Source of the DNA: Romanomermis culicivorax
Lineage: Eukaryota; Nematoda; Enoplea; Mermithida; Mermithidae
Length of the DNA: 64,000 bases
Direction: 5' to 3'
Assembly (NCBI GenBank): GCA_963922205.1
Contig: CAWUHX010000025.1
Coordinates: 1,612,001-1,676,000, forward strand
Shown here in pieces: positions 3,806 through 39,339 of this stretch. Made by a program: the position numbers and the translations under genes. Every line of letters starts with the position of its first letter. Position 1 is the first letter of the stretch. The notes under the pieces are model-generated. The model ran no database searches and was not told the origin of the DNA. It saw nothing but the letters and a program-made list of their open reading frames with translations.

Positions 3806-4420
3806 TGTTGTGCAGGTCTTTCCTTAAGAGGCGTAAGAAAAGATTGGGTCTGAACTGACCTGTTAGAACTGATACCTTGGCTAAGCCTCGGTGATCTGTG
3901 CAACAGTCCGTTTGTCCCCAGACCTACAGCAACAAAGATAAACTTTGTGCTAAATACGGGGGCCTTACCAAAGACCTCCGCAGTCTCCTAGATGAGACAA
4001 GGAATCCCCTCAGGGATAAACTTACTTGGGTATAACCCGACAGGGGTTTCCCAAAACTTACTTGATGTAAGCCGGCGCCTGGGCCTCTGGCCCTCCGCCT
4101 TCGTCGATGCGAATTATCTAAACAAGTAAACGAATATATTAAACAATAAATCCGACGAAATATGTAAAACGAATGTGGGTACACCACAGTAGAATACTCA
4201 TAAACAAAAGACGTTGCTGGGAAAATTATATTTAGGGACGCCAGCAAAGAACACCAAAAATATAATAAAAACGATATTAAGTGAAGAATGATTTCACTTT
4301 CATTTTTCGTCTTTCTTTGGCGCTCCATTCTATGCAAATGTCTGCGCCGCTGGTCGTCCCTGTCGTCGATTTGCATGTCGATTTCCCCACACGAAATTGG
4401 CATCAACAGGGTGCCCAACA
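3806..4420 (-). repeat. 3' LTR of the nested element
   Basis: A 615-bp copy matching 17858-18472 with no difference noticed, and TGTTG...CAACA inverted ends. In element orientation it is the downstream LTR. The purine run next to it (revcomp of 4421-4431, ending GAGGGA) is the best polypurine-tract candidate. A 165-codon frame crosses the LTR on the minus strand but shows no recognisable domain. Confidence 0.95.
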
Positions 4421-5163
4421 TCCCTCGCGCGTCGAAACCGACCTACGGGAGGTAGAAAAAAAACTTTTGGCCGGGTTACCCCGGCATTAAAAGAATTAAT
4501 CAAAAAAGAAAAAATCTACAACTCCGGCTGACTCCTGATAAACAGTTTGTCTCACCGGACTCCCGTTTCACAGTCTGTCCTAATAGAACTCCTGTGCTGG
4601 TCGTTGGACACAACGAATACCAAGGGCTTCGCCGCAATGGCTGGCAAGTGACGTCCATTTTGACCTCGGCATTGATGGAATAACCTCCTGCCCTAAGGAG
4701 TATGACGTAAACGTCGGTGCCGGATGTGTGGTCGGCTTCGGGCTCGGCCGCTCGGTCTGCATGCTGTGTCAATTCGTTGGCCGTGGGTCTAACCGCATGC
4801 AAATCGACTTCCCGCGTCTCTATTTTTTCTAAATTAAACTAAAATACGAGATTATATGGCGATACAAAAAGACGACGCGGGGTTGTACGGATATCACAAA
4901 ATTTAAAATGCGCTAAAAAATTTGAGCAAGAATGTGGCCAAAAGTTAAAATATTTTTTACGGTTGCGTTTTTTGCACCGGTTTTGTCAAAAAAGAGATTT
5001 TTGATGGCCAGCAGCACCGAAAAGAAATGTTTTTGGATTTTTTGTTTTTTGATTTTTTTGGATTTTTTGTGATTTTATTAGTGTTTTTGGGTTTTGTGTT
5101 TTATGAAATAAGTAAAAATATATGTACGAAAAAGAAATTTTTGGGCCAAAATTTTGCGGCTAT
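4421..5163 (-). other. 3' untranslated region of the nested element
   Basis: A 743-bp stretch between the stop of the exonuclease ORF and the 3' LTR. It has a T-rich part near 5020-5140 and no convincing coding frame. The segment nearest the LTR should contain the polypurine tract. Confidence 0.7.
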
Positions 5164-8100: not shown

Positions 8101-9597
8101 TTCCTGGCCTTCTTTAGTATAACTATTTAGAAAGTTATAATTTAGCAGAGCGCTAGTTTCATAGTCGCACTCCGCTCTGGAATGAGGCCATGCCAAATGA
8201 TAAGCCAATGGCATAAATTTGCAGATGACCTCTAACTCTGGGAAGTTTCGCTCATCCAGCATACCTGAAATCTTTGCCAAGTTTGGCGTGTAAAAATTGG
8301 TCTTATAGGCCTGTCTATGGCCCTCGATACCCACTGGGTAGTGGTTATTAGAGGAAAACACCTCTTGTGGAATGGTATCGGGCTTCCCGGCTTGTTGCCA
8401 GTATAGCTTGGCGTTTTCGTACAACGTTAAAGAAATTTTCCCGTCTAAATCCCAGTAGGCTCCGCCTGACTTGAGATTTTCCAGGATATCTTTTGAAATA
8501 TTTACCCAGTCTGGTATCTGGACGTCCTGGATTTCGTCGGGATCGCTATCTGTGGTGTATCCGTCGTCCTTCATTGGTTTGTTATCTCTCGGAAGTAGTG
8601 GGTAGAAACCACTTGGCAACTGAACTCCCTGCGGACGGACTGGATTACACTCCGTGGGCGCGGTATAATAACCTGTGTTATTTCCCTGCATCTGCACCGC
8701 CCAACGGTTATACATCTCACACTTCATCATGTGGTAGACCATGTTTGGTTGAACCTGATCGGTTTCCATAACTGGGGTACCTAGCCCCATTTCTCGATTC
8801 ACATTGCCCGGAATCATTAGATATTGCTGATAAAAATGGAGGGCAATGGTGTTGATCTGTTTGGGATCCACCTTGTCATGGTCGAAAATCTGCATTTGCA
8901 TAAGCAGTTGATCGGCCATGCCATAGTGAATGGCGGCAAACATGACCAATAAGGAGTAGTATGCGTCTAGAGCGGCGTATCTGAGCTCTTCCGGCAATAT
9001 ACCCCTTTTGGCAAACCGATCACGGTTCGCTTTCAACGAAAAGTCATATTGGTAGGGGCCCACGTCTATCAAATAAAATTCCGTGAACAGTCCCTTTAAC
9101 CGAAAGGTTTCGGGACATATACCTGTCTGAAAGCATTTTTTCTCCAGGTTTACTCCTACCATGGTGAGGGCGAAACGGTCTAAGTCAAAGTATCGACCTT
9201 TGGTCTTTCTTAGAAATTCCCGTAAGGGGACAGTTTTGTCCCTATCCTTATTATCTCGCCCTGCGCCACAAACGTTATAGATACTCACCAGATCTTCCAG
9301 CACGGCGTATCCGGCAAAGAGCATGTCGGAGTTCAAGAAGTCGTGGAGGCTGGTCCACTCTTTGATCATCATCGACGTTGTATCAATAACGTAAGTTTGA
9401 CCGTTCGTTAGCGCGAAGCTGATATATCGGGCAAACTGCTTTCCCATTGGATTGTCGACCTCCCTTGTTTTGAACAAGGCGGCGACCTTATCCTGGTTGA
9501 CTTTTTCAACGTCGAAACCACAAACTGGTTGTCCTCTGAAGATTGACACTTCTCGGATAAAATGGAGTACCTGGCTGACCTTCCCGATGTCTACCAT
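5164..9597 (-). CDS. ORF2 of nested element: DEDDy 3'-5' exonuclease-like N-terminus, long RGG-tailed protein
   Basis: A 1477-residue intact ORF in the position where env usually sits. Residues 1-220 show the three exonuclease motifs of the RNase D/WRN (DnaQ-like) class: FDVE (D29, E31), an acidic Asp in VLEDL (D102), and YAALDAYYS (Y207, D211; the Yx3D signature). The spacing from D102 to D211 is longer than in WRN or RNase D, so an insertion is likely. Residues about 230-640 match nothing I recognise. Then come a Pro/Ala/Val-rich linker, an acidic patch ([11 protein letters not shown]), a charged helical region that is probably coiled coil with a basic KRRRL-type stretch, a Ser/Thr repeat ([10 protein letters not shown] repeated), a second folded-looking region (about 1130-1290), and a Gly/Arg/Gln-rich RGG tail. 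No signal peptide or membrane helix. It probably acts on nucleic acid during the element's life cycle; this is inference. The frame stays open upstream of the ATG to about 9724, with a possible splice acceptor at 9693-9694. Confidence 0.8.
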
Positions 9598-10924
9598 TCG
9601 AGGTTCCTTGGGATTGGCCGGCCAGTACCCAAATGTGGCTTTAAACCACTGATCCAGTTCGTGGATTCGTACGGCCCGTTTGACGTTATAATCTAAATAT
9701 AAAGTACTATTAATTTTAGTGTTTTATTCCCCTTTTTTCAGCGCATCTTCGGGTCTATACTACACCAGCACCACAACACCAAGCGGGTTAAGTTTCGCAG
9801 AAAATTAAGTTTAGTGCAGGTTGTTAGGTGAGCCACTGATATACAAACATTGAGCTGGTAGGCAACTAACACCTTACCAAATCTTACCCTTGCTACCTCT
9901 ATATGTTGGGGAGGGTAGACCTGATCCGACTGTCCACCACTTGATCGGACACCAATCTCTGACCAGCTGCTTGAGCGACCAACTACGCTCCATTTATGGC
10001 GCTGTATTTACAATTTTTATAGCGCTCGAAATTGATAATTTTTAATGAATTTTATATCGAAAAAGTGATATGATTTGATTTGATTTAAAAATAAATAATT
10101 TTTGATAACTTTTTGAATGATAAAACTTTAAAACGGGCTGAACCCAAGGTTCTAGGTTTCCCTTGAATCGTATAGCTCTCGGTGGTATCAGGTATATTTC
10201 CAAAATGGAAATTCCCTGCTTGGCTTCGAGCTTCCGTTTCGCAGTACTCCCATTTTTCGTTCCCTCTAAGTTCTAACCTCGTCTGCCCTTTGGGGCGCCG
10301 AGCTGGTCTTCCAGTGACTTCTGGGCATTACCTGCGGTTTCCAAGAATATTTGATAAAAATAAGTTCGAAACTTACCGTCGATAAAGAAAAAACGGTTGT
10401 CTTGGCGGTGCTGGGCCCTGCCGTATTCAACGTGGCGCTCTGTGTGCGACCACTCGCGCGTCGGAGCTTGTTGGCGGTTCCGCGCGCCCTTTCCCATCTC
10501 TTTTCTTTTCGAAATTTTTGTTTTCGAATAATAAATTGATAAATTTATTAAAAATTTTGAACGCTGAAAAAGTTTAATCTAGCAATTTTGCTAATTTCCT
10601 TTTTTATCGCGGTTCGGGGAATATTTTACTTCTTCCTTCCGATGGAAGTTTAGAATTCAGATAAGCGGGGCAGCTATAATTTGATTTTGAAAAAAAATGA
10701 AAAATTTGAAAATTAATTTTTTAGAAAAAATGTCGGAAATTTTTTGGGTTGTCACTTTGGTCTAAAATTCCGAAGAATTTTTCCCAAAGTCTGAAATAAA
10801 TATGAAAAATTTACAAAATTAACACGAATACTACATAAACGCGATAAATATTACAAATTAATACAATTTTAATTAAAATTAGTACTTACACGCGCGAGAT
10901 ATGTACATAAAATAAAAAAAAAAA
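9598..10924 (-). other. Spacer between gag-pol and the exonuclease ORF
   Basis: About 1.3 kb, AT-rich in parts, with no ORF I can support. On the minus strand the part next to ORF2 (9724 to 9598) is open in the ORF2 frame. It contains a pyrimidine/AT stretch ending in AG at 9694-9693, a plausible acceptor for a spliced ORF2 message. Nothing else is recognised. Confidence 0.5.
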
Positions 10925-13900
10925 TCAGCGCGAGATCGCGCATAGATTCGCCTTGAGCGAATTTTCAAATGATTTCATTTGAATCGGCGCTCCAGTCGTA
11001 ACTGTTTGTGCCATATTGGAAAGTGACGTATTTTCGTCACGTGGCGCGTCCTGATTGGCTCGCGCTATTCGCGGCAAGACCCTAGTGGTCTCGTAACGAA
11101 AATGTTTCAACCTGCTGATTGAAACTGTTTGGCGATTTAGCGGGTTGTCCCAATGTACAATGGTGACAACATTCTCCGCTTCTCGCGAAATGTCCGTAAC
11201 TATGAACGGACCGGACCATGGTAGTCCTAGTTTTTTCTGCTTATCTACTTTGAGCAGAACCCAATCCTTTTCTTTAAATCCATTTTGTTTGGACTTTTTA
11301 TCGAAGTATTTCTTCGATTTTTCGGCAGCACTCTGGATATTTTTTGCAATATCCTCGTACAGGTTGACTAAATGATTGGTCAACACAAATTTGTATGCCT
11401 CAGCATTGCTGTCCGGCATTACAATATCGTATGCTTTCGATAAGTTTAACCCGAAGGTTGCCTCATGACCTCTAAGCAACGAAAATGGGGATTGCCCCGT
11501 GGCTGCATGCGGTGTGGCATTATATGCAAACACCACAGCTCTCAAGTATCTTGGCCAGTTATCTTTTTCCTCGATGGCCACCTTTCTGAGCTGTTTAATG
11601 AGTGTCTGGTTAAACCTTTCTACCATACCATTTCCTTGTGGGTGGTAGGCTGTTGTAAAAATTTTTTGACACTCCAATAACTTGCAGATCTCCTTCATTA
11701 GATCTGAGGTAAAACAACCTCCTCTATCGCTGAGTAGTCTCCGTGGAGTCCCGTGCCTAAATACAATAGCTTGTAGAAAAGTATCTACAACGGTGCTAGC
11801 TGACTGATCCGGGATCAGTTCAGCTTCAACCCACTTTGTAAAATAGTCTTGAAAGACTATGACATACGGTCTCTTCTCACTAAGTGGAGAAATACCCACG
11901 ATATCCACTGATACTATGTCAAAAGGACCTTGTGGAATAATTGGTATCAGTGGCGGAATTTCGGTGTTTCCCTGATTAGCCATTTGACAAACTGGACAAA
12001 ACTTGATCCAGTGCCTGACATCCTTTTCAATTCCAGGCCACCAGAACCGTTTTTTGATCATAGCAAGGGTCCTTTTGAACCCCTGATGAGTCATCATTAC
12101 GGCACCGTGGTACTGGTGCAAAGTATTGTCCCTAAGGCAGGATGGGACGACCACCTGATCATCCGATCCCTGTCCGGCTTCGCGGTATAACACTTCATTT
12201 TGGATATAAAATCCACTATGATACTTGGTTGTCCCATTTGGACCCAATCTATCAAAATATGGTCGTAGTACCTCATCTTTTCTCTGCAAGAGGGCCATGA
12301 GATCATCTCTAATTAGCCCTTTTGGTAGTTCATCTTCTTTAGGGTCTGCCAAAGTAAAATCTTGTTCCTTTTCTGGGTATAACCAGGTTACTCTTTTTTC
12401 CTTACCTTTGTCCTGGTTTCCCCTACTTACCTTTTCGTTGACCTGATTGCCATCAGGCTGGATCTGAGCCTGATTGCTCTTCTCCGCTTCCTTCGCCATG
12501 CTCCTTGTAGTTACGGCATTTATCAAGTCTGCAGGCGAGTTTGATTCTGGATCACCCTCAGAATCTTCTGGATAAATCTTGGTGAATCTCGGACTCATAT
12601 CAGTCCTCTGATTCTTCTTACCTTTTGGCTCTGGATGTAACGGAGTACCGTCTTCAGGATTCCGATCTGTCAGAATTCTGAATCTCTTCACCAAATTGAG
12701 ATGTTTTTTCTCAATAAGCTGTGCCTCAAGATCTTCCAGATTTTCGGACTCTCGTTTATCCTTTGAGAACATGTGTTCCCATTTTGGCGGTATCTTTTCC
12801 GCTTGATCGTCTGGTTCATCCATCCTGGACAAAAAGTCTGCCATGGCATTTTGTTTTCCAGGCACATACTCTAGTTTATGGTTAAACTGAGAGATGAACG
12901 AGTACCATCTCTTCAACTTACCATTGGTCATTGCATTGACCTTCATAGATAATAAAGGTTTGTGATCAGTTCTTATGATCACCCTATGACCCACTAAGTA
13001 GTGCTTGTATAACTTCAAGCCATACACAATTGCCAAGCATTCCCTTTCCGTGGCTGACCACTTTTTCTCATCCGCCTTTAAAATTCTGCTATTATAAGCA
13101 ATTACCCAGCGGTCTGAGTTAGTCTCCTGGTAAAGGACTGCTCCTAGTGCCGTTCCGCTGGCATCTGTCTGAAGGACAAAGTCCGCAGACCCGTCCAAAA
13201 CCGGATACCTAAGGAATGGCACTGACAATAGTGCTTCTTTCAGGCTCCTAAAAGCCTGATGGTGAACCTCCGTGACTTCCCAAACACAGTTCTTCCCAGT
13301 TAGTTTGTACAACGGTTCGGCGTGTTTAGCCAAACCCGGTATGAACTTTTTACACCACTGCAACATACCTAAGAACCTTTGCAGTTTACGTTTAGACTCT
13401 GGGAATGGGAAATCATTTATAGCTTTGACCTTTTTCGGATCTGGGGAAACTCCATCCGAATTTAAGATATGTCCTAAAAAATGAACTCTCTCAGGCAGGA
13501 ATTCACACTTCTCCGGCTTCAAGGTCAAATGAGCCTTTCTTAGAGCTTGCAGGACTAGCTCTAGATTAACTAAGTGTTCCTCAAACGTATTTGAGAACAC
13601 AATAATATCGTCTATGTAGACTAGACAGATTTTCCAAACATATGGATGCAAAACTCTTTCCATCATACGCTGGAATTCGGCTGGCGCATTTTTTAGGCCA
13701 AAGGGCATGACTTTAAATTGATAAAGCCCTTCTTGGCATATGAAAGCAGTTTTCTCCTTGCTTTCTTCATCCATTGGCACTTGCCAATATCCTGATTTGA
13801 GATCTAGGGTAGTATAAAATTTGGCTTTACCTAAACAGTCTAGATAGTCATCCATTCTAGGAATGGGATACTTATCATCCTTGGTAACATCATTTATACC

Positions 13901-16900
13901 CCTAAAGTCCACTACTGGTCGCTTGGTACCATCCTTTTTACCTACAAGGAATAACGGAGCTGCCCAAGGCGACTTTGATGGCTCAATTACACCCTTCTTG
14001 AGCATATCTTGCACATGCTCACGAACATGTGGCCGTAAATTTATAGCAGTCCTGTGGTACCTTTTGGCCACGGGTGCTGCATCCCCTGTATTTATTTTAC
14101 AGGTCAAATAGGGTGTAGTAGTTGGAGGATCACTGGGCAAGCTGAACACGTCTCTATATTTTGCGAGACACCGTAAAGCTTGTTCCAATTGTTCAGATGG
14201 TATGTTGGATTTAGCTAGCATATTGTACAAGGCTTCCTTGAACTCTTTCTCATCCGCTTGAGTCGAATCAGGTCTAGCCTGGACTGCACAAGTTTGCAGC
14301 TTCTCCAAATCCTCAACTATCTTCCCCTTAAGTTGATCTTGGTTATCAGTATCACACAACACTGAATTAGTATGGCCAATTATTTGATTTCTTTTCAAAT
14401 GGCATCCTGATCCTGTGTTGTTGGATACCATAACAACAAAATCATCTCTTGTACCATCTACTATGGTACTATCAATGTGGAACCTTTCTTCATTGTCTTC
14501 AGACTCTATTATGATTCCATTGAGGCGATTTTCGCCTACCTTATCCCAAAGCTTTGCTCTCAGAAGTATATCAGTACCACTAGGTAAGTAGATAGGATTC
14601 ACACTCACCACTGGCACCGAAACCTTTAGCAGGCAAATCTTTGGCTGGTACTGGTCGGCGGCGCTCATTGTGGATTCCGCGGCGCTCGTGGTCATGACCT
14701 CTCCACAATTGGATTGGGGCTGGTCGGGCGTCACGTATATCCGTTGTTGACGGTTGTTGAGCGTCATCGTCCTATTCCTGAAATCTATTATGGCTCCTAC
14801 CTGAGGATGAGCCAAAAAGTCTGTTCCTACAATGACATTTTCACCTGCTTCAGGAATTACAATTGCTTTAACGGGGAACTGTCCACACAATGTATCCATC
14901 CTAAATTGGATATACCCATGGGCTTGGACTGTCTTACCGTTGGCTACAGTGACATTTAATATCCTGGGATATTCAGTATAATCTGGGCCCAAAGTTTCCT
15001 TCAGAAACTTAGCCGACATGACAGTGCACTGAGCTCCTGTGTCAATTAAAGCCATTGTCTTACGACCTCCTATAACAACCTCAATGTGGAATGGGGCTGT
15101 CCTGGGGTACGTATCCAGCAAATGTTGTTCCTGAGGGCTAGCTGGTGTGCCTCTCCTTATTACTTGTATTGATGGTACTACAGGTTGTGGTACAATTGCA
15201 TTCATTTGCACAATACTACCTAATACAACATTTGGGCCACTCACTCTCTGGTTTACTTCACCTAAAGGACTCATCTGAGATTGCCTTGCAACCATAACAC
15301 TCGAATAATCCTTCTGAGGTGGCTGATTTGTGAACTGACCTTGTTGAAGAGTCTGAGTCGGACCCATAACAGCCTGTGGAGGCTGAGGATGCTGTAATGC
15401 AGCTTGCTGTTGGTATTGCTGCATCTGTTGGAACTGCTTCTGCAGCTCCTTTTGCCTTTTGAACTCCAGGAACTCATTGTAATCGGAGTTCTGTAAATAA
15501 CTCTCCTGGCTATCCTGATGACCTGAATAGCCTACATTATACGCACCTCTACCTCTGCTATTAAAGTTGGCATTTGGGTAACCTCCTCTACCTCTGTAGT
15601 TACCTCTAGCAAAAGTGTTGAAGCCTCCCCTGTTGAAGGTAGGGAAGCTGGCTCTACCTCTGCTCCTGCGCTCGGACAATACTCTCAATGTCCTGCAGTC
15701 TGCAGTATTATGTGTTATGTTCTTGTGGAACTCACACCATGGCTTAGTTGGATCTTGGGAAACTTGACCTCCCTGGCTTGTACTAGGTATGGCCACATCA
15801 GACCGGTTTTCCGCTTGCCTGTTATCAACCTTTTGCTGGAGCTGGTCGAACCTTTCGACCAGTTGTACCATCTCTTTAGAGATTTTCAATAGAAGAGATT
15901 CTTTCTTACCTTTTTCGGTCTGAGCCCTAGGGGCTTCCCGAACTGGAATCTCCTCTATCTCAGGAGAATCACTCCTTGACCTTTGGGTTTGGGCCTGTAC
16001 CTGATTACCTAGAGTTTGATACGGTTGCCGAAACCTTTGCCTCTGGCCTTGTTGATATCCTTCTGACTGGTTCCTAGCAACTACGGCAATTTCAGGATCA
16101 TGCCCACTAGGCATACCTACTTCATTAATTACTATAGGATCCTGTTGTGTACCCTTGGGTCCATATCTCTGAAAGGCATTCTTGTACCTACGTTCAATAT
16201 CATGAACCTCTACTGCAAGATCATACCAGGTTCTAAAGGTATGCTTTGAATTTTTCAGTTCAGACTGAAATGTAGGATCACTCTTGTAGATAAAGGTATC
16301 AATAATCAGTCTCTGTTTAGACTGATAGTCTAAATCACCTTTAACTAGTTCCACTAATATACTGACCCTTTTTAAAAACTCTACAGCCTGTTCATTGGGT
16401 CTTTGTTGGATCTCAAACAACTCCCTGGTTAACATTTCCAGGTTGCACTCAGGTGCAAAGACATTAATAATGGCTCTCCTGGCCTCCCTATAGGTCATGT
16501 TGTCTCCTGCAACAGCCTTCGGTCTACCCTTAGAAAGCCTCAGCAGTGCCTCATATTTAGCTGATTCGGGTGTATCCCTACGGAATTCCCCTTCAAGTGC
16601 TGTTAAGAAGCTAAGCACCTGCTGATTTACCATACCCTCATCTAAAAGTTTGGGTAACACACCTTTAACGATATTCCTGACTACAATCTCTTGTGCCAAA
16701 TTATTTGATGGCACTTCCCTCTGATCATAAGCTGCTGTTAATACTGGATCAAGATCAGAGTTCAAGGATTGCAGCATAACCCTATTTGGATCTCGTTGAG
16801 GTGGTACACCTCCTTGATATGATGGCATATTGTCTTTGTCAAACCTGTAATCCCTATATGGGAAACATGCCAATTGATCTGGTCTAAGGGTATTTGGATC

Positions 16901-17761
16901 AACTATATTTCCTCTACCATCATAGACCACTCTAGTTAAAGTTGGATGCTGCGGAGCTATCTGACTTGGATTCCTGAAGTCTGCCGATTGCTCAGCTCCT
17001 TCGAATCGAAGATCTCTAGCTGGACCTCTCCAACTTTTGGGCTCAAAGTTAAGCCTTTGCCCTTCATCAATATCAGGCCTATTACTAGGCCCTGCGCCTG
17101 CATTTATTTCAGCAGCGAGACGGTTGTCTCCTTCTGCACCCCTATTACATGGTCTAACCTGTCTATCCGGCTCCTGTCGGCGCCTGTTGGCTTCCCTTTT
17201 GTTGTCCTCTGTGGCGGCATTCGCGATTATGTCGAACAAGGCTTCGACGGTCCCTTTCAACTCGCGTAGCTGCGTCGCCAATTCTTGATTGGACATCTCA
17301 GGAGCTCTTTCCTGCGGTTGGAATCGCTCTTGTTCCTGGGGAATCCTCTCTAATCGTTGATCGATTTCGGGGTCCCTTTCTTCGAAATTTGGTCGAATTT
17401 CGGGCGTAACAACGTCCCTTTTTGGTCCTGCTAATTCGACCTTTGGCGGCGGTGACCTTTTTAAATTTTGCTGCGGCGGTCCATCGGCGTCTGGGTTCGG
17501 ATTCGCCGGGCCTGCCTCCTGCGGATCGATGGCAATCGCTGGCGGTCGGTCAATTGGTACGCCTGCATCTTGAGGCGTAAAATGCATTGCATTTTGCTGC
17601 AATGGTTGAACCCTCGCGGGAGTTTGATCTGGGATCACTGGGTCCGGGGCAGCATGCCGTTGCTGATCTCCGTCTCCCAAATTGACTAGATTCCCAGCAC
17701 TCGCCACTCTGGGTGGTGATCTGCGTAAAGTATTACCTCTCGGTATCCTTTCGTTAGGCAT
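10925..17761 (-). CDS. gag-pol: gag-pol polyprotein of the nested element (intact)
   Basis: A single 2278-codon ORF from ATG at 17761, 96 bp inside the 5' LTR. Gag spans residues 1 to about 760: a Pro/Arg/Gln-rich N-terminus, a retrotransposon-gag core (about 340-560), a CX2HX4HX4C knuckle ([14 protein letters not shown] near residue 675), then an RG-rich and Gln-rich region. Protease: [14 protein letters not shown] near 905. [10 protein letters not shown], then YIDDIIVF near 1385. RNase [14 protein letters not shown] near 1530. Integrase: HHCC zinc finger (H..H...CPVC) near 1890-1925, then the D-D-E triad in [16 protein letters not shown] and [10 protein letters not shown] (about 1953, 2010, 2050). 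All key residues are present. Gag and Pol share one frame with no stop or shift, so a Gag:Pol ratio must be set some other way. The order PR-RT-RH-IN is that of Ty3/gypsy. Confidence 0.95.
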
Positions 17762-17837
17762 TTTAAATCCTGCTAACTTTCTGTAGAAACCTGGAGGATA
17801 TTCTTTTCTCCTAGTCTGACTACGAAGTTCCGTGGTA

Positions 17838-17855
17838 AGGAGTTAAAAGCCACCA
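17838..17855 (-). promoter_or_regulatory. Candidate primer-binding site of the nested element
   Basis: Reading the minus strand out of the 5' LTR, TGGTGGCTTTTAACTCCT starts two bases after the LTR end. TGG complements the CCA tail of a tRNA. I cannot assign the tRNA without a search. Confidence 0.6.
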
Positions 17856-17857
17856 CT

Positions 17858-18472
17858 TGTTGTGCAGGTCTTTCCTTAAGAGGCGTAAGAAAAGATTGGG
17901 TCTGAACTGACCTGTTAGAACTGATACCTTGGCTAAGCCTCGGTGATCTGTGCAACAGTCCGTTTGTCCCCAGACCTACAGCAACAAAGATAAACTTTGT
18001 GCTAAATACGGGGGCCTTACCAAAGACCTCCGCAGTCTCCTAGATGAGACAAGGAATCCCCTCAGGGATAAACTTACTTGGGTATAACCCGACAGGGGTT
18101 TCCCAAAACTTACTTGATGTAAGCCGGCGCCTGGGCCTCTGGCCCTCCGCCTTCGTCGATGCGAATTATCTAAACAAGTAAACGAATATATTAAACAATA
18201 AATCCGACGAAATATGTAAAACGAATGTGGGTACACCACAGTAGAATACTCATAAACAAAAGACGTTGCTGGGAAAATTATATTTAGGGACGCCAGCAAA
18301 GAACACCAAAAATATAATAAAAACGATATTAAGTGAAGAATGATTTCACTTTCATTTTTCGTCTTTCTTTGGCGCTCCATTCTATGCAAATGTCTGCGCC
18401 GCTGGTCGTCCCTGTCGTCGATTTGCATGTCGATTTCCCCACACGAAATTGGCATCAACAGGGTGCCCAACA
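17858..18472 (-). repeat. 5' LTR of the nested element
   Basis: 615 bp, matching 3806-4420 with no difference noticed, so it should hold the element's promoter. The right edge is fixed by the GATG duplication at 18473-18476, after which the interrupted RT frame resumes. Confidence 0.95.
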
Positions 18473-20639: not shown

Positions 20640-20661
20640 GGTCGATTTTCCAGCCTCGCCA
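20640..20661 (-). repeat. 22-bp stray primer-binding-site copy beyond the 3' LTR
   Basis: These 22 bases are the same as 36168-36189, the primer-binding site next to the 5' LTR of the neighbouring element. Here they lie outside the 3' LTR, where unrelated flank is expected. Identity stops exactly after 22 bases on one side and runs into the LTR on the other. Confidence 0.75.
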
Positions 20662-21421
20662 TGTCACATTAAACGAAGTGGAGCCATGTCACATTAAACA
20701 GAGGTGGTGATCAGTCACATTGACGGGCAAACCCGTACCATATCCCATAGGAAACATGGCCATGACACGGTAGGTGACATACTGTGACCCCGTGGGGTGG
20801 CTCCAGTATGTTTCTTCGTTTCGGGAACCCAACCCAGCTGGTACTACCACAGGTAAACCTATGGTGTACCTCGGCCTTGTCCTGGGGTTAATGCTGTAGA
20901 ATAATGGACAACGCGGCGGGGTCGGGGGTGTCAATCCCTAGTCCTCATTCACCGGAATGGGGGGCCGTGCCATTCGAAGAATGGCTTACTGTAGGGGACC
21001 CGATTGTTAACCTAAATCCCCTTTGTAGGCCCTGACCTTAAGGGTCTGAGGGCTCTTCTTAACTGAGGGTACTTCCGAGAGAAAACTGGCTTAGGGGAGA
21101 CTCCCACAAATATACCCTCACTAACAATAACCCCTGAGAAGACTTACGACACCTCTTCTCAAATTACTCGGCGCTGGGCGACTGGTTCGGGGTCAAACAC
21201 GGGGTCCTACGGATGGCGATGTGGGAACGAACTCCGAGCGATTCGGCGTGGGTATTCGGCGGCTGCTAGTGGCAGGCGGCCGTAACAAACGTCTCCTCGG
21301 TGAGGGGCGACGGGTCTCTACAACTAACGGCGATGGGGACGGGTTCCTACGGTCGGGTTACTGTAGGCGATGTGTGTATGTGTAGGTCGGGGTCCGAATA
21401 TGGTAATTTATTCGACCTGTG

Positions 21422-21425
21422 ACGG
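21422..21425. repeat. 4-bp target duplication (ACGG) of the miniature element
   Basis: ACGG precedes 21426 and recurs at 22159-22162. The partner LTR holds a single ACGG at 36949-36952 in the same context, which is the empty site. Confidence 0.92.
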
Positions 21426-21476
21426 TGTCACGTGTCGCACGTCCGTACATCACCCCTTCGTACCAGTCGCTACACT

Positions 21477-21547
21477 GGCTCGGTAGTTCAATCGGTAGAA
21501 CGCTGCACTATAGTCAATGAGATCCGGGTTCGAATCCCGGTCGAGCA
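21477..21547 (+). ncRNA. tRNA-like Pol III unit, copy 1 (in TRIM LTR 1)
   Basis: 71 nt with an acceptor-like stem (GGCTCGG with 3' TCGAGCA, one end mismatch), a D-arm GTTC...GAAC, a T-arm CCGGG TTCGAAT CCCGG, a matching A box (TAGTTCAATCGG) and a perfect B box (GGTTCGAATCC). A run of five T follows at once. The anticodon stem does not pair, so it is unlikely to be a working tRNA. It is better read as a Pol III promoter or transcript. Confidence 0.7.
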
Positions 21548-21749
21548 TTGTTTTTCAAAACGGTGTTTGGCGATGGTTACGATGACAACGCGTTTACCCA
21601 TTTACGTGTCATGGCGAGGCTTGGATTGGTCCCACAATGGTGGGCCGCAGAACCTGCATCTTCAACGGACGAGGTCGTCCTTCTTTCAAGGGGGGGAATG
21701 TCACGTGTCCCATGCACGTACATCACCCCTTCGTACCAGTCGCAACACC

Positions 21750-21820
21750 GGCTCGGTAGTTCAATCGGTAGAACGCTGCACTATAGTCAACGAGATCCGG
21801 GTTCGAATCCCGGTCGGTCA
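21750..21820 (+). ncRNA. tRNA-like Pol III unit, copy 2 (in TRIM LTR 2)
   Basis: Same structure as copy 1, 273 bp downstream. A and B boxes are unchanged. The 3' acceptor strand reads TCGGTCA instead of TCGAGCA, which weakens the acceptor stem. A TTTTT terminator follows. Confidence 0.65.
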
Positions 21821-22023
21821 TTATTTTTCGAAAACGGTGTTTGGCGATGGTTACGATGACAACGCGTTTACCCATTTACGTGTCATGGCGAGGCTTGGAT
21901 TGGTCCCACATTGGTGGGCCGCAGAACCTGCATCTTCAACGGACGAGGTCGTCCTTCTTTCAAGGGGGGAAATGTCACGTGTCGCACGTCCGTACATCAC
22001 CCCTTCGTACCAGTCACAACACC

Positions 22024-22094
22024 GGCTCGGTAGTTCAATCGGTAGAATGCTGCACTATAGTCAACGAGATCCGGGTTCGAATCCCGGTCGAGCA
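22024..22094 (+). ncRNA. tRNA-like Pol III unit, copy 3 (in TRIM LTR 3)
   Basis: Same structure, 274 bp after copy 2. One change in the D-stem 3' side (GAAT for GAAC). A box, B box and T-run are intact. Confidence 0.65.
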
Positions 22095-22826
22095 TTATTT
22101 TTCAAAACGGTGTTTGGCGATGGTTACGATGACAACGCGTTTACCCATTTACGTGTCAACGGCAACGCAGTTGACAACAATAAAAATATAATAAAAATAT
22201 CGACGGCGGACGCGACGTGAAGCTAAATGACGAAAAACCAGTTAGGCCCAATAATGAGTGACAAAAAGACAAAACATGCCCTTTTAAAGGGCTCCATAAA
22301 CTACAGTATGCCTTGGGCGGAGTTAACACTCCCCCAAGCTAACTTCTGCAGCCGAAATTGTTGCAGAAGATGCCTATGATCACATAGACATTTTTCAGTT
22401 CACAACGTTAAGCATTGGGGCGAGTTTTCTCTCTCCATGCTAAACATAGGAACGTCACTAGTGAGAATTTCAACTAGTCGTTTCACGTTGTGAAACGACG
22501 CTAGTTTTTACTGATAAGAAGTGCACATTGTGCTCTAATTACAGTGATGAGCTCGGAGAGCTTATCTCTAACGGAAATTCTTGACTAGCGGGCACATACC
22601 GTAGTCTACGTGTGCGATTGAAAATAATAAATTGAAACGGAAATAAATGTGCGCAAAAGCAACAGAAATAAACATAAAAAGTACACACATAAATTGCATG
22701 TAAAAAGTATAAAAACGAAACGCAAAATTGATGTAAATTACTGTAACACAAAACATAACAAAAAACATAATGAAAAATTGTGATGTGAATCACGTGGCGT
22801 TCGACGAAATCCGTCGGCACGTGACA

Positions 22827-23980: not shown

Positions 23981-26900
23981 GGGATGATAAGCGTGAACAA
24001 ATGGCAGTGATTTCAGTCATCAGTTTGGACGTGAAATCAGTACCATGATCAGACTGAAGAATCTGCGGTGCCCCATGTCTGCAGACAATTTGAGTAACAA
24101 AAAGTCGAGCTATAGTTTGCGCAGTGATGTCCGGAGTAGCGAAAGCTTCAACCCATTTAGTAAAGTAGTCGATGAAAACTACAATAAATCGGTTTCCGTT
24201 TTCACTAGTGGTCATTGGTCCCATACAGTCGACACCGACTCGATGAAACGGTCCCGTAATGGAAATTGATTTCAGAGTTGCACGGGTCTTTTGTCTCTTT
24301 TGCTGACAAAAGGACTTGACGTCCGCACTGAGGGAAGGCCAGTGGTACCGACGGGCTATAAGCCTCGCGGTACGTTTCGCACCAAAGTGTCCAGCAAGAA
24401 TGTCGTTATGATGAGCCTCAATAATGGTAGTAACCATTGAACGAGGGACAACAATCTTGTTGGACTCGCCTGTCCACTTCTGAAGGATGTTATCCAACAG
24501 GTGGTAGCCATTAACATCATTCTGATCACCGTAGGGCTTTAGTGACCTGAGAATGGAGGCTAATTCCCGATCCTCAAATTGAGTTGCGAGAAGGTCATGG
24601 TGCTGCGCATCCTGTGATATCTCTGCATAAGACTCAGACCTGACCAGGTGCTGCGCACCATTGGTGATCCTTTGGGATGAGTTCGCCAGGCGCTGCACAC
24701 CATCGGAGATCATCATAACTTCTCCCTCGGGTCTGTATAGGGGAATATCGTCAATACTCTCCCCGGCAAGGGAATTAGGATCAGGAAGGTGTGATAATGC
24801 GTCAGCATTACCATTAGACCGACCTTTTCGCGGCCGAATAGTCAGTTTGAATTCTGCTAACGCGAGGCCCCACCGAGCTATCCGGGACGAAGGGTTCGGT
24901 TTTTCCAACACAGCCTTAACAGCAGTGTGGTCAGTCTGAACGACCACCTCATGTTGAAAGAGGTAAGGCCGAAAGTGCTTGACGAAATGGACAACAGCGA
25001 GAGTCTCCAACTCCGTAATAGTGTAGTTTTTCTCAGCTGCTGTTAACCCTCTACTGGCGTACGCAACAGGATGGTCGTATCCATTTTCGTCCAACTGGCT
25101 TAGAACTGCTCCTATCCCTGAAATACTTGCATCAGTTTGAAGTATAAAGGATTTCGTAAAGTCCGGATGGCGCAGGACAGGAGGGTTCAACAACAGCCGT
25201 CGGAGTTCGTCGAACGCCGTCTGCTGAGGTTTTGACCACTGGAAGGTAACTTCCTTCCGTAAGAGCTTGGTCAGCGGCTCGCTGAGCCGAGCGCAACCAG
25301 GGATGAAGCGCCTATAATGAGACACAAGACCAAGAAAAGACTTGATGTCCTTAGCGTTTTGTGGAATGGGTAGATCCTGGACGGCGGCCAATTTGACTTT
25401 GTCTGGTTCGAGACCTTTCTGTGAGATGCGGTACCCGAGATATTCTACCTCAGAGTGCGAAAACTTGCACTTGCTCAGTCTGAGCTTCATTCCACCCTGA
25501 CGGAGACGCGTAAACACATCCGTCAGGCGCTCAAGCATTTGGGTGTGAGAGTTCCCGAACACCAAGATGTCGTCGAGATAGGTCAGTGCAGTGCACCACT
25601 GCAATCCTGTGAGAAGCAGATCCATGAGGCGTTGAAACGTCCCAGGGGCATTGCAGAGACCAAAAGGCAGATAGTTGAACTCGTAAAGTCCAATAGGTGT
25701 ATTAAACGCCGTTTTTTCTTTGTCTGCCTCGGCAATAGGTATGGACCAGTAGGCATTAGCCTGGTCAAGGGTAGTAAAGTATTTCATACCCTTGAGTGTG
25801 TCCAGGATATCATCAATCCGTGGGAGAGGATAGACATCCTTTTTCGTGACCTCGTTAAGACCATGAAAATCAACACACATCCGGTGTGACCCATTTTTCT
25901 TGCGAACCAAGACGGTGTTAGTAGCCCAGGGAGAAGTGCTAGGCCGAATAATACCTTTTTCTTGGAGCGCTTTGACCTCTTGTATGATGAGATCCTTTTC
26001 CTTGGGCGCGGTGCGGTAAGGGAAACGGCGGACTGGGCGAGCGTAACCCGTGCTGATCTCATGGTGCACGAGGTCAGTGGAACCTGTGTCCTTTTCATCA
26101 ACAGTGTAGAGGTCAGTAAATGTGACCAGTAGATCGAGCAACGCTGTTTTATCCTGTGAGGAGATATCTGAAGATATCACAGCATTGGCTTCAACCCACT
26201 TACGGTCAAGAATGATATCAGCCTTGACCGCTGATCCCTGTGAGGAATCAGTATGCATCTGCACATGACCGATGGTCGTGTGTGGGTAGAGAACCACCGT
26301 GTGTGTACTTGGGTTAACTACCTGTAGGGGTATGCGACCATTGGTCACAGTACTCACAGTACCAGCAAAGTATACGTTATGTTGCTGACCCAAAAGAGGC
26401 TTAGGGAAGAAAGCTACCTCAGGCACAGTTGCATATATTGAAGGTACGGGTGCAGTGAATTGTGTTAGCGAGCGAGGCTCAAGGACAATCAACTCCTGCA
26501 AGGGTAGTGCCCCACGAGCAGAAGGTGGATTGTGAATGAGGCCTTCACATGGAACTCGAAGTTCCTTGAACTGGAGAAAGGATTTCTCCCAGTTCAAGCT
26601 GACACAATTGAAGCGTCCGAGGAAGTTCGTCCCCAAGACGAGTTCAGCTGAACAATTCTCTTGAACTTGGACTTGAATCCGTTCAGAGACATCAGCCACT
26701 GACACCGTGACATAGGCAGAGCCTAGCAGTAGAATCGGGGACCCATTGGCTGCTATGGGGCGAGTCCTAGTCTCTGTGAGTACCAAGTCGGGTAACTGAA
26801 CCGCCAACTTGTGATCCAGGAGCGAGAAAACTGCTCCTGTATCAATTAGAGCTTTGGCTTCTACCCAATTGTTCAGTAGAACCTTGATATGAGGGGTTCT

Positions 26901-27881
26901 CATTTCAGTGGGGTAGAAAGCTGATACTACATGACCTGGGTCAGGAACAGAGTCATCAAAGCTCGACTCTGGCGCATTGGTTCGCCTCAGTATGGGTAAA
27001 CCAGTGCGTCTGAGTAAACCTACCAGAGCATAACCAACTGATGTTTCCGGATTGGCCTTAGGAGTTGGATGGACCTGAACAGTGAGTACATGATCTGATC
27101 TCTCTCCTGAGCTCCGAGTAGCTCCTAGTGATTCAACCTCAACATCAGAGAGTGGTGGCACCTCTAGTACAGGGGATGCAGGTGCATCAGAATCACTAGG
27201 CTCGTGAAAACCGCCTTTCTCTAGTGTAACTGGAGAATTTCCAGGCGGGGGTCGGGGACAGTTTGACCCTGACCGGGCCATGGAATGACCACTAGCCCGT
27301 CTAGAAGAGGTCCTACTTCCTCTGGTTGACCCACGGGATGAGGCAATGGAGGAAGCTCGCGAGGGTGGCCGAGAAAGGGATGAAGTCCTTGATCTTGATC
27401 GAGACCCGGACCTGTGGGAGGCCCTTGACAGTGAACATGTGTTCTCCCACCAGGATTCGATCTGATCAATCTCAGCTGCTGTCAACAGAAGTGGCAGTTC
27501 TACCGGATTCAATCGACAGACATGTTGTTGGTAGTCAAACGTAATATTCTGGAATTGTTCTAAAAAGTCCAATCCAAGAATCAGATCGACCAGTGCCCAG
27601 AAAGGAGACGTAGTCTTACACACATGGAGATGTATATCCACTCGTGTGTGTGGCTGACAGGTTCCAGGCAACATTATCTCATACGGTCCTGAAAGGAGGG
27701 TATGGACAGCTTTACCATTGATACTCATCAATGGATTAAAGTCGTGATGTTGCTGGAAGGCCATCGCCGCCTTCGGACTCTTTTTGATCAGCGCTTTGTG
27801 AAGGCGTTGACTAATGATAGTCCGTTGGACAACCAGTATCAAGGAAAGCTGGAGTTTCCTTGTGGTCAACCAGTACGACAA
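23952..27881 (-). pseudogene. pol: pol: rest of first protease, second protease, RT, RNase H, integrase N-part
   Basis: This 1309-codon frame begins at a non-ATG position inside a frame overlap with env. Residues about 20-140 are the body of a first retropepsin-like domain (ILGLDFLEQF) whose DTG lies in the env frame. A Ser/Arg-rich spacer follows. A second retropepsin has its own ALIDTGAVFSLLD (near 26815-26855) and LVLGTNFLGRF. RT: MCVDFHGLNE, FTTLDQANAYWSIPI, YLPFGLCNAP, YLDDILVFG (near 25560-25585). RNase H: FILQTDASISGIGAVLSQ. Integrase: zinc-finger histidines and one cysteine (SFCQQKRQKT; the second Cys of the CxxC pair appears lost), VGVDCMG and LQSDHGTDF. It ends in a frameshift before the catalytic Glu. 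Confidence 0.88.
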
Positions 27882-29598
27882 AACACGGAGTGATCCTGTC
27901 TAACTGGGTTGGCACATTGTTCTGTACGTAATGAAAACCTACCCAATGCTGAGCTTTCCGGAGGAGGTTCAACGGAGAGTATTGGCTAACAAACCGAACC
28001 TGTCTTTTCCGCAGGCGGTAACTGAGGTAATAGGAGACCCCAACGTAGATGAGAAATCCTGTACAGGCCACTACTGCCAGGGCAATAAGTATGTTAAAGA
28101 TTAGCTGCACTGGTCCACTCAAAAGAGACTGTAAGCCCTGCATGAGGTTGTGCTGCTGACCAGTAATCACATGGTTTGCTGCCAGACCAACACCTTCCAG
28201 TGAGGCTCTGATGTCAGTCCCTACCCCTGCAACAGCCTGATACAAGGTATCTGGTTGTAGGGATAAACCAGCCGTATAGTTTACCAACCGGTTCAAGACC
28301 GCTTCAATTTGCTCAGTCTTGTAAACGTACTGTTTAAAGAAAGCAAAACTTGAAGGGGTCATCACCAACTGATCATGAAAGAGCGCAGGAGCGTCAAAGT
28401 GAGTGATGTTGAAGCGCTGTTTCCAGAACAGCTCAAGCGGAATGTGGCTCACATGGACCCTGCCAGATTCAGTAAACCTGCCAGAGCGATTTCGGAAAAT
28501 CCCTGTAAGGTGGTGGTCACACGGCACCTTTGGACTGAATTTAGTGAGATCTGGGCCACCGGGGGTGGCAAAATAAATGGTACCGCCAACCTGTACGGGT
28601 AGATATTTGTAACAGGTGTCTCCCACTCGGTACGAATGATAGACATAAGTGGCGTTGACCTTTTGACATGGCCATATCGTCAGTGCTTCACCCGTAAATT
28701 CCGCCATCAAGTCATTCCTCTGAAGGAATGCCCGGGCTCCTAGTGTAGGGTCAAAACGGAGCAGCTGTAAAGTCAGATCAAGGTAGCGTTGAGTGTGAGA
28801 ACACAACTCCAGCCACATGAATCGAAAATTGTTAATTTCTGACTCTTTGATCTGCTGAGCCAGGTAATTCAGTTTGGCATTGACGGGGTCAGGGACGGAG
28901 TCCTTTGCTAATCCGAACAACCTCTGGGTCAAATTAAATCTTCCGTGGATGCGTAGAAGGAGACCCTGATCCGTTCGCACTGTATTCAACCGGAGGTCAG
29001 GACACAGTCGAAACACACGAGAGTTTCCCGGGATCTTCAGGGCAACCTGCAAATCATCGATGATGATGTGGTTCCCTGATACAGACGCAGTGTAATTACC
29101 TTGTGGCCGATAATGGCACTGGGCTGTAAAGTTTGTGGCAGGCCAAACAATTACCCCGTCTAGAGTAGTGCATTGACCTGCAGTGGGACTGCATCCACCT
29201 ACATCTCCTAAGGTACTTAGAGCTGTAGTGCCATCCCACGAAGCGACCTGTCCCTCCTTGATGAAAAGGTTAGTCACTGTCTTGCAGACGTCATTGCAGC
29301 ACCATGAGTACATCACCTCCAGTGTTTGGTTAGTGCTATAAAAGCCAGGACGTATTTCCACGAGCTTTTGTAAACCAAACACCTTTGTGCGATGTGCTAG
29401 TGTGCACGCCGCAGGCGCGAAGTGCTGAGTAGTAATGACGTCCACAGTTATGCCCCTAGATCCGAAAAAACCAGTATTTGTGCATACCTTAGGATTCCGC
29501 AAGGTACATTTCCATGCTTTAGTCGTGATTGGATCGGAAATAGGTACATATACTGTAACATTCATGCATCGTGGACTCCACGAAGATTTTGGTGGTTT
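27811..29598 (-). CDS. Env-like glycoprotein ectodomain and anchor, running into a protease start
   Basis: Open frame with first internal Met at 29565 (584 codons). It continues the frame of the signal-peptide segment upstream, separated only by a TGA at 29599-29601. It has at least nine N-glycosylation sequons (NVT, NQT, NFT, NYT and so on), many cysteines including CTNTGFFGSRG and WCCNDVC, a membrane-proximal helical region, and a membrane anchor (IFNILIALAVVACTGFLIYVGV) about 95 residues from the end. After the anchor comes a basic tail, then the start of a retropepsin-like fold with FLDTG. The frame ends at TAG 27811-27813 inside that fold, and the remainder is in the overlapping pol frame. 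I cannot assign a fusion-protein class. Env lies between gag and pol, as in the plus-strand relative. Confidence 0.75.
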   Translation of the reverse strand, partial: KPPKSSWSPRCMNVTVYVPISDPITTKAWKCTLRNPKVCTNTGFFGSRGITVDVITTQHFAPAACTLAHRTKVFGLQKLVEIRPGFYSTNQTLEVMYSWCCNDVCKTVTNLFIKEGQVASWDGTTALSTLGDVGGCSPTAGQCTTLDGVIVWPATNFTAQCHYRPQGNYTASVSGNHIIIDDLQVALKIPGNSRVFRLCPDLRLNTVRTDQGLLLRIHGRFNLTQRLFGLAKDSVPDPVNAKLNYLAQQIKESEINNFRFMWLELCSHTQRYLDLTLQLLRFDPTLGARAFLQRNDLMAEFTGEALTIWPCQKVNATYVYHSYRVGDTCYKYLPVQVGGTIYFATPGGPDLTKFSPKVPCDHHLTGIFRNRSGRFTESGRVHVSHIPLELFWKQRFNITHFDAPALFHDQLVMTPSSFAFFKQYVYKTEQIEAVLNRLVNYTAGLSLQPDTLYQAVAGVGTDIRASLEGVGLAANHVITGQQHNLMQGLQSLLSGPVQLIFNILIALAVVACTGFLIYVGVSYYLSYRLRKRQVRFVSQYSPLNLLRKAQHWVGFHYVQNNVPTQLDRITPCFVVLVDHKETPAFLDTGCPTDYH

Positions 29599-36167: not shown

Positions 36168-36189
36168 GGTCGATTTTCCAGCCTCGCCA
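36168..36189 (-). promoter_or_regulatory. Primer-binding site of the gag-env-pol element
   Basis: On the minus strand TGGCGAGGCTGGAAAATC follows the LTR end with no gap. TGG complements tRNA CCA. The miniature element uses a near-identical start (TGGCGAGGCTTGG), implying the same primer tRNA. This site also fixes the element's orientation. Confidence 0.8.
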
Positions 36190-37618
36190 TGTCACATTAA
36201 ACGAAGTGGAGCCATGTCACATTAAACAGAGGTGGTGATCAGTCACATTGACCGGCAAACCGGTACCATATCCCATAGGAAACATGGCCATGACACGGTA
36301 GGTGACATGCTGTGACCCCGTGGGGTGGCTCCAGTATGTTTCTTCGTTTCGGGAACCCAACCCAGCTGGTACTACCACAGGTAAACCTATGGTGTACCTC
36401 GGCCTTGTCCTGGGGTTAATGCTGTAGAATAATGGACAACGCGGCCGGGTCGGGGGTGTCAATCCCTAGTCCTCATTCACCGGAATGGGGGGCTGTGCCA
36501 TTCGAAGAATGGCTTACTGTAGGGGACCCGATTGTTAACCTAAATCCCCTTTGTAGGCCCTGACCTTAAGGGTCTGAGGACTCTTCTTAACTGAGGGTAC
36601 TTCCGAGAGAAAACTGGCTTAGGGGAGACTCCCACAAATATACCCTCACTAACAATAACCCCTGAGAAGACTTACGACACCTCTTCTCAAATTACTCGGC
36701 GCTGGGCGACGGGTTCGAGGTCAAACGCGGGGTCCTACGGACGGCGATGTGGGAACGAAGTCCGAGCGATTCGGCGTGGGTATTCGGCGGCTGCTAGTGG
36801 CAGGCGGCGATAACAAAAGTCTCCTCGGCGAGGGGCGATGGGTCTCTACAACTAACGGCGACGGGGACGGATTCCTACGGTCGGGTTACTGTAGGCGATG
36901 TGTGTATGTGTAGGTCGGGGTCCGAATATGGTAATTTATTGACGTGTGACGGCAATGCAGTTGACAACAATAAAAATATAATAAAAATATCGACGGCAGA
37001 CGCGACGTGAAGCTAAACGACGAAAAACCAGTTAGGCCCAATAAAAGAGGTGAAAAACTAAAGAAACATGCCCTTTTAAAGGGCTCCATAGACTACAGTA
37101 TGCCCTGGGCGGAGTTAACACTCCCCCAAGCTAACTTCTGCAGCGGAAATCGTTGCAGAAGATGCCTATGATCACATAGACATTTTTCAGTTCACAACGT
37201 TAAGCATTGGGGCGAGTTTTCACTCTCCATGCTTAACATAGGAACGTCACTAGTGAGAATTTCAACTAGTCGTTTCACGTTGTGAAACGACGCTAGTTTT
37301 TACTGATAAGAAGTGCACGTTGTGCTCTAATTACAGCGATGAGCTCGGAGAGCTTATCTCTAACCGAAATTCTTGACTAGCGGGCACATACCATAGTCTA
37401 CGTGTGCGATTGAAAATAATAAATTGAAACGGAAATAAATGTGCGCAAAAGCAACAGAAATAAACATAAAAAGTACACACATAAATTGCATGTAAAAAGT
37501 ATAAAAACGAAACGCAAAATTGATGTAAATTACTGTAACACAAAACATAACGAAAAACATAATGAAAAATTGTGATGTGAATCACGTGGCGTTCGACGAA
37601 ATCCGTCGGCACGTGACA
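36190..37618 (-). repeat. 5' LTR (without the miniature element)
   Basis: 1429 bp, ends TGTCAC/GTGACA. It aligns with 20662-22826 apart from the 733-bp insertion and scattered substitutions. It holds the empty target site ACGG at 36949-36952. Sequence right of 37618 is unrelated to the element and is taken as host flank. Confidence 0.9.
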
Positions 37619-38641: not shown

Positions 38642-38930
38642 ACACATGCCATGAAGCCATAATGTCAGAAATCTGGAGATCGACGCCAAAATGTGTGACT
38701 CCAGGATCCACCAGATCGAAATGGAGATCCAAATAGGCCATGCACCATACCGTCTACCCCGCTCACCATTCTTCCATTCTGAAGATGACTTTTTTTGAAA
38801 ATTCTCTATTTTGGGAATTTGTTCAGAGACTTCACTGTTTTGAGACCTGGATCTTTTGAGAATCACTGTTTTGAGACATCACTGTATTGAGTCTCACTAT
38901 TTTGAGTTTCGCTGAATAGGTGTGAAACCT
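37855..38930. mobile_element. Foldback-type element with repeat-built inverted arms
   Basis: The left arm (37855-38040) is built of CTCAAAACAGCGATT units. The right arm (about 38815-38930) is the reverse complement of the same units (TTTTGAGAATCACTGTTTTGAGAC). About 770 bp separate them. Terminal inverted arms made of short tandem repeats are typical of Foldback/Galileo-like elements. No transposase is seen. Confidence 0.55.
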
Positions 38931-39189
38931 GTAAAACAATCGAAGCATGAAATAGGATTCCACGGTTGGCAATGACAAGGCACTCGGTGTGTAAATATCG
39001 TATATTTTTACAGATCAAAATATAGCGTACGGAGTGAGAATAATAATTTTCAGCTGCAGTAGCTTGAGCTAATCCTAAACATACTTTTCAGTTCCCGAGA
39101 ACAATTTTCAATAAATAGATTTCACTACGTTGATGAGTCCGGCTGTTTACCACGCGGCCTGCTGCGGTACACACACCACAATCCCTGCA

Positions 39190-39262
39190 ACGTCCACTTG
39201 GCCAGCGCGTCCGCATTGCATTCAAAAGGTCGAACGTTCAAGTCCCTCACCAGTGTTATTGT
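39190..39262 (+). repeat. Possible tRNA-derived SINE head
   Basis: Contains an A-box-like TGGCCAGCGCG and, 45 bp later, a B-box-like GTTCAAGTCCC. The arms pair poorly, so it is not a tRNA gene. It could be a decayed SINE or chance. It recurs in the second block near 51550. Confidence 0.3.
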
Positions 39263-39339
39263 TCTGATGTGCCGACTACGTGGTTATGGGCGTGATTTAA
39301 AAACACGTCGATTTTTTTCTTTTATTCATGATATCATAA

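Follow-up and report, generated by a model that had tools for sequence, protein, structure and literature searches.

A Helenus-type TRIM in the nematode Romanomermis culicivorax, probably primed by tRNA-Arg(UCG) and mobilized by a gypsy lineage

Introduction

Romanomermis culicivorax is a mermithid nematode that parasitizes mosquito larvae. In a 64-kb stretch of one of its contigs (CAWUHX010000025.1, positions 1,612,001 to 1,676,000 of assembly GCA_963922205.1; hereafter the window), one LTR of a gypsy-type element is interrupted by a short array in which three small LTRs, each with a tRNA-like unit, alternate with two internal regions. What kind of element is this, which primer and which proteins could copy it, and does the tRNA-like unit act as a promoter?

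A sequence-only reading of the locus had proposed a Cassandra-like miniature LTR element (TRIM) and had regarded a tRNA-like counterpart of Cassandra in an animal as a parallel invention. That idea had been anticipated in print: tRNA-bearing animal TRIMs were described in 2024 by Kojima as Helenus (TRIMp3), from six animal phyla, with 4-bp target duplications and gypsy-like PBSs (PMC10886601). In that account the group is defined by structure and multiple origins are thought likely, Pol III transcription is expected and not proven, Cassandra is named as the only validated Pol III TRIM, and Nematoda is absent from the host table (PMC10886601). Our literature search for Helenus, retrotransposon and tRNA returned nothing beyond this paper, and among the titles and opening lines searched no tRNA-promoter TRIM was described in nematodes; in the text available of a study of M. 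incognita, TRIM appears only as an annotation class.

The locus holds a real, recently active element of a kind known since 2024 and, as far as the literature search shows, unreported in nematodes. We consider it probable that it is a Helenus-type TRIM of R. culicivorax, present here as a three-LTR tandem, primed by tRNA-Arg(UCG) and mobilized by a gypsy lineage, with Pol III transcription and the formation of compounds with that lineage as its putative further traits.

Anatomy of the window copy and its empty site

The TRIM occupies 733 bp of the plus strand (21426-22158) and is organized as LTR-internal-LTR-internal-LTR between two copies of a 4-bp target site:

21422..21425, no strand: left target-site duplication, ACGG
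21426..21611, plus strand: LTR1, 186 bp, with ends TGTCACGTG...ACGTGTCA
21612..21698, plus strand: internal region 1, 87 bp
21612-21621, plus strand: PBS of internal region 1, 10 nt of the tRNA-Arg 3' end
about 21628-21646, plus strand: inverted repeat of internal region 1
21650-21663, plus strand: second tRNA-Arg-complementary stretch of internal region 1
about 21663-21691, plus strand: gypsy-like 3' end of internal region 1
about 21688-21698, plus strand: PPT of internal region 1
21699..21885, plus strand: LTR2, 187 bp (one base more), with 7 alignment sites unlike both outer LTRs
21886..21972, plus strand: internal region 2, 87 bp, with PBS and PPT
21973..22158, plus strand: LTR3, 186 bp
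22159..22162, no strand: right target-site duplication, ACGG

This layout and its two 87-bp internal regions agree with the sequence-only reading, which had however given all three LTRs the same length of 186 bp. The ACGG duplication that it had called exact is so on both flanks (21422-21425 and 22159-22162). It had also pointed to a preserved empty site at 36949-36952, and a single ACGG is indeed found there, 15.5 kb from the insertion; the gypsy element that carries the TRIM has this site in its other, second LTR, which makes it an internal control. An open frame that spans the TRIM is the repeat read through, and no coding for mobilization is present.

A dispersed family in the genome

The LTR1 sequence yielded at least 80 LTR matches in the genome, the best 40 of 445 candidate places being scored; the 37 regions examined around these matches gave 40 element rows. 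A search with the internal region, in which the best 40 of 298 candidates were scored, added 19 regions and 20 rows. The resulting 60 rows, window copy included, represent the best-matching copies and are not a random draw, since both samples were taken from the best-scored matches.

Exact 4-bp target duplications flank 28 of the 40 rows of the first sample and 12 of the 20 rows of the second, that is 40/60, for a chance expectation of about 0.2 with random 4-mers; no duplication of 5 or 6 bases was found among the 60 rows. Rows without a duplication stay in the counts. In the first sample these are three truncated copies, five rows with repeated flanks (two each of L029 and L035, and L040), L015, L030, L032 and a compound; in the second, they are truncated copies, L061, L075, L074 and a compound, a CACT duplication seen by eye at L074 being left out of the count. 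The dispersal with target duplications predicted for the LTR is thus borne out, and the tRNA-like part also holds in other copies, both boxes being kept in 96 of 112 full-length LTRs.

Two-LTR copies account for 24 of the 40 rows of the first sample (two of them truncated), the others being seven solo LTRs (one of them the odd L015), eight three-LTR copies (one truncated) and one compound; the second sample has a single three-LTR copy among its 20 rows. Complete two-LTR copies measure 455-466 bp, and in four two-LTR copies the LTRs are identical, which points to recent activity. A 29-nt word of the LTR had no match in IMG/VR.

Two further loci deserve mention. L017 repeats the situation of the window, in that the TRIM has there too entered an LTR of this gypsy lineage, flanked by a duplication of its own, CACG. 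L053 (C117:992573-993922) holds a mitochondrial-type COX1 frame (TGA = Trp, AGR = Ser) deep within a long contig of nuclear sequence, which would be a nuclear copy or else a mis-join. A COX1 frame of the assembly has 97% identity to R. culicivorax and 84% to the species listed next.

The likely gypsy partner

Self-comparison of the window revealed a gypsy-type element on the minus strand, with long LTR regions at 20640-22826 and 36168-37618 that are alike at 97.5% and 96.3% on the two sides of the TRIM insertion:

20662..22826, minus strand: 3' LTR of the gypsy that carries the TRIM (its own 1.4 kb plus the TRIM)
25500..26399, minus strand: searched piece of the gypsy pol ORF, reverse transcriptase (PF00078)
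36178..36189, minus strand: gypsy PBS, TGGCGAGGCTGG, 12 nt of tRNA-Arg complement
36190..37618, minus strand: 5' LTR of the gypsy, 1429 bp, holding the empty site ACGG at 36949-36952

The TRIM and this gypsy have in common the first 9 bases of the LTR and the first 10 bases of the PBS. Their internal regions can also be aligned at the 3' end, with a match that none of 1000 shuffles equalled (0/1000 as good). Beyond their ends, the LTRs of the two elements have no homology. The word that spans the gypsy LTR end and PBS, GTGWCATGGCGAGGCTGG, occurs at 695 places in the genome, and its reversed control at 0. An ORF at 27811-29598 (minus strand), which occupies the env position, matches the Pfam family Monjiviricetes_fusion, a viral fusion glycoprotein, with an E value of 4.5e-16, and this envelope-like gene may accordingly derive from a negative-strand RNA virus lineage. 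The element is assigned to the Gypsy superfamily by its gene order and general look, not by a tree.

Taken together, the shared ends point to a gypsy lineage with an env-like ORF as the likely partner of the TRIM, one LTR of this lineage being the site of the window insertion. Proteins of this lineage would copy and integrate the TRIM. At its 3' end, the window gypsy continues past its LTR for 22 nt (20640-20661, minus strand) that repeat its PBS and the start of its internal region without a difference, after which the sequence diverges; no evident target duplication was seen.

The likely primer tRNA and its footprints

The primer was sought in the genome with a pattern that joins a tRNA T-loop to the complement of the PBS, the reversed pattern serving as control. 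It occurs at four places, versus one for the control, and ARAGORN identifies three of the four as tRNA-Arg(tcg) genes. The primer of the TRIM is thus likely tRNA-Arg(UCG), which would start reverse transcription at the TRIM PBS. The complement of the mature tRNA-Arg 3' end extends over only 10 nt in the common TRIM PBS and over 12 nt in that of the window gypsy. Among the near-full internal regions, 56 of 59 start with TGGCGAGGCTTGG, a selection that leaves aside the divergent first internal region of L011 and the internal region of L012.

Some copies bear longer stretches of tRNA-Arg complement. L011 has 18 of 18 nt. L082 has 16 nt and L083 14 nt; these two were found by a pattern that demanded 12 nt of complement, so that only the further 4 and 2 nt, respectively, are new. 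In L082 the complement follows a lone LTR, and the sequence beyond it matches no part of the TRIM, nor the gypsy LTR, nor the 300 internal bases that come first after the PBS in the window gypsy. The longest stretch occurs in L012, where 39 nt between the two LTRs are complementary to tRNA-Arg at 36 of 39 positions. Primer copying that ends at modified base 58 is expected to leave a footprint of 18 nt, a usual length that L012 exceeds.

The common internal region also contains a second stretch, GAACCTGC-ATCTTC, complementary to the T-arm and variable loop of tRNA-Arg, for which 3 of 1000 shuffles were as good. A short inverted repeat separates it from the PBS; the predicted fold of the internal region lies within that of shuffles (z +0.43), and the inverted repeat is hence given as a description only.

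Compounds of gypsy and TRIM

Only two compounds occur among the 60 rows. In L046, a full gypsy LTR, 89.5% identical to that of the window, is followed by a TRIM internal region and a TRIM LTR, with CGTG at both outer ends. The last 9 or so nucleotides of this gypsy LTR look TRIM-like, and the switch from one element to the other may therefore sit just inside the LTR.

The second compound (L079/L080) extends over 13.2 kb (C79:418557-431754). At L079, a gypsy-like 3' internal end leads into a gypsy LTR that belongs to another subfamily, and this LTR passes exactly at its end into a TRIM internal region and LTR. Upstream, at L080, lies a second gypsy LTR that is 98.1% identical over the first 1228 of 1419 bases and has neither the last 191 bases nor the PBS; between the two gypsy LTRs the search covered LTRs. 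The missing LTR tail and PBS mean that the unit has been rearranged. As CAAC stands both before the upstream gypsy LTR and after the TRIM LTR, the whole looks like a single integration minus a piece, which would have been lost before or after the insertion.

The exact junction of gypsy end and TRIM internal region occurs at three places in the genome, two of them ordinary two-LTR TRIM variants and C79 the sole compound. The reverse pattern, a TRIM LTR on a gypsy body, also has three places, one of which is L011, and none is established as a reciprocal compound. L015/L047, in which a TRIM LTR and 10 nt of PBS precede a divergent gypsy-LTR-like sequence, is a candidate for one.

Both compounds suggest that a single particle held the two elements while they were copied, and that a strand was transferred at the PBS that they share. 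Plus-strand gypsy DNA that ends in the copied PBS would have jumped, within the same particle, onto TRIM minus-strand DNA. We lean, by a small measure, towards this account, in which the TRIM and the env-bearing gypsy are packaged together and the compounds are traces of a gypsy plus-strand jump from the copied tRNA-Arg site onto the TRIM minus strand.

The compounds and the three-LTR forms could instead have arisen by DNA recombination of integrated or circular copies and not during reverse transcription, a serious contender that we nevertheless judge unlikely. Unequal recombination has been published for tandem TRIMs (PMC6934838, PMC4558846), the added units are exactly one internal region plus one LTR, gypsy and TRIM share sequence near the LTR end and PBS, and the upstream LTR of the C79 unit shows a rearrangement. 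The matching outermost 4-mers of both compounds (CGTG and CAAC) argue against it, as does the lack of homology between gypsy and TRIM LTRs beyond their ends. The three-LTR copies give a divided answer: the middle LTR of the window trimer is the odd one, with 7 private sites, which speaks against recombination, whereas the pattern of LTR differences is mixed in the other six of the seven complete trimers compared, so that these copies are not decisive as to the origin of trimers.

Should copying in a shared particle be correct, such compounds and the primer-tRNA footprints, which reach 39 nt, would name from sequence alone both the primer and the helper of a tRNA-promoter TRIM, and this in a phylum from which none had been known.

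The tRNA-like unit and putative transcription by Pol III

Each LTR of the window copy contains a tRNA-like unit followed by a run of five T:

21477..21548, plus strand: tRNA-like unit of LTR1, with A box at 21484-21495 and B box at 21527-21537, then T5 run at 21551-21555
21750..21820, plus strand: tRNA-like unit of LTR2, then T5 run at 21824-21828
22024..22095, plus strand: tRNA-like unit of LTR3, then T5 run at 22098-22102

Rfam finds tRNA above its gathering score once in each of the three LTRs, which upholds the earlier description of a miniature LTR element with a tRNA-like unit per LTR, and no other Rfam family or site reaches this score anywhere in the 64-kb window. ARAGORN calls tRNA-Ile(tat) in two of the three, and no further tRNA in the 64 kb. 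The sequence-only reading had placed an A box, a B box and a T-run terminator in each LTR, and the A box TAGTTCAATCGG, the B box GGTTCGAATCC and a T5 run are indeed present in all three. The unit has little of the appearance of a functional tRNA: its anticodon stem is unpaired in sequence and its predicted fold is no cloverleaf (z -1.08, within shuffles).

Pol III would initiate in the first LTR, a short way before the A box. A terminator lies inside the LTR, so that a full-length Pol III RNA would require read-through of the first run: the polymerase would have to pass the T5 run of the first LTR and terminate at that of a later one. Transcription of the TRIM by Pol III is what these promoter and terminator elements lead us to infer.

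The TRIM could also be an ordinary miniature LTR element transcribed by Pol II, its tRNA-like unit being a passenger, namely a decayed tRNA or SINE fragment. We regard this as rather improbable. In its favour, conservation in the A and B box columns does not significantly exceed that of LTR columns drawn at random (0.974 versus 0.953, with 1114 of 10000 random sets as good), and the unpaired anticodon stem and the fold described above agree with it; a T5 run in every LTR would, moreover, tend to halt Pol III early, and 96 of the 112 full-length LTRs have such a run behind the B box. A passenger is harder to reconcile with the retention of both boxes in as many LTRs of the family, 92 of the 112 also having a run of T4 or longer behind them, with the intact boxes and T run of all three window LTRs, and with Helenus elements elsewhere, in which boxes of this kind are likewise retained (PMC10886601). 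That the sequence is no mobile element at all, and that genuine tRNA-Ile genes are clustered here as a short tandem repeat, can be set aside as most improbable: the two ARAGORN calls speak for it, but it is contradicted by the empty site at 36949-36952, by target duplications, PBS, PPT, solo LTRs and dispersed copies, and by a fold that is not a cloverleaf.

Relation to Helenus, Cassandra and other elements

A Helenus-type TRIM remains our reading of the family, and its membership is judged by structure, the basis on which the group itself is defined. With Helenus it shares a length below 1000 bp, LTRs and a short internal region with PBS and PPT, the lack of coding for mobilization, LTRs that each bear a tRNA-like unit and its A and B boxes, and the 4-bp target duplications seen in animals, here in 40/60 rows (PMC10886601). 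Its PBS is likewise complementary to a tRNA 3' end and gypsy-like (here tRNA-Arg, 10 nt in the TRIM and 12 nt in the gypsy), and tandem arrays are known in one Helenus family, LTR-11_DR (PMC10886601). Box A contains TRGCY and YGG in most members, and box B GGTTC (PMC10886601); the window copy has YGG and GGTTC, and TAGTT in place of TRGCY, the fourth base of its A box being T where most Helenus have C. It also differs in its primer, tRNA-Arg being named among animals for hymenopteran families (PMC10886601), in its host phylum, and in its compound integrations with gypsy, of which the portion of PMC10886601 available to us contains no report.

The label Cassandra-like holds for the design and not for the sequence. 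Cassandra of plants is a TRIM whose LTRs each enclose a Pol III promoter and its terminator, and it has tandem copies with about three LTRs, whereas it carries 5S rRNA in place of the tRNA-like unit (PMC7215508, PMC10886601); the nematode element is no Cassandra, the 64-kb window having no 5S rRNA match at the Rfam gathering score. The ta-TRIM of Echinococcus is another animal TRIM with mostly 4-bp duplications, and the case for its candidate partner, lennie, was built, much as here, on the 8 bases that open the LTR and on a tRNA PBS of 8 bases (PMC4558846). It differs in that the term 'polymerase III' is absent from the main text, and no compound integrations are described in the text available to us (PMC4558846). 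tRNA-derived SINEs are also short and non-coding and have a tRNA-like Pol III promoter, yet they need target-primed reverse transcription, unlike an element with LTRs, PBS, PPT and 4-bp duplications (see also PMC10886601).

With this family, nematodes join the hosts of tRNA-promoter TRIMs. PMC10886601 leaves open how such TRIMs keep their link to a helper with LTRs unlike their own, and the family suggests an answer that can be tested. The special value of the compounds and primer-tRNA footprints is that both are signs which can be searched for in any other Helenus or Cassandra host.

Other elements in the window

A 14.7-kb LTR element at 3806-18472, with 615-bp LTRs that are 100% identical and GATG on both sides, is inserted in the reverse transcriptase gene of another gypsy. 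It contains a gag-pol-like ORF of 2305 aa and an ORF of 1519 aa (5164-9723, minus strand); the latter matches no Pfam family, and its residues 1-900 have no homologue at E 0.001 among 7998 scored candidates. Finally, two 12.2-kb stretches (38642-50881 and 50982-63235), 98.9% identical, flank a gap of 100 N and are probably two haplotypes joined by scaffolding.
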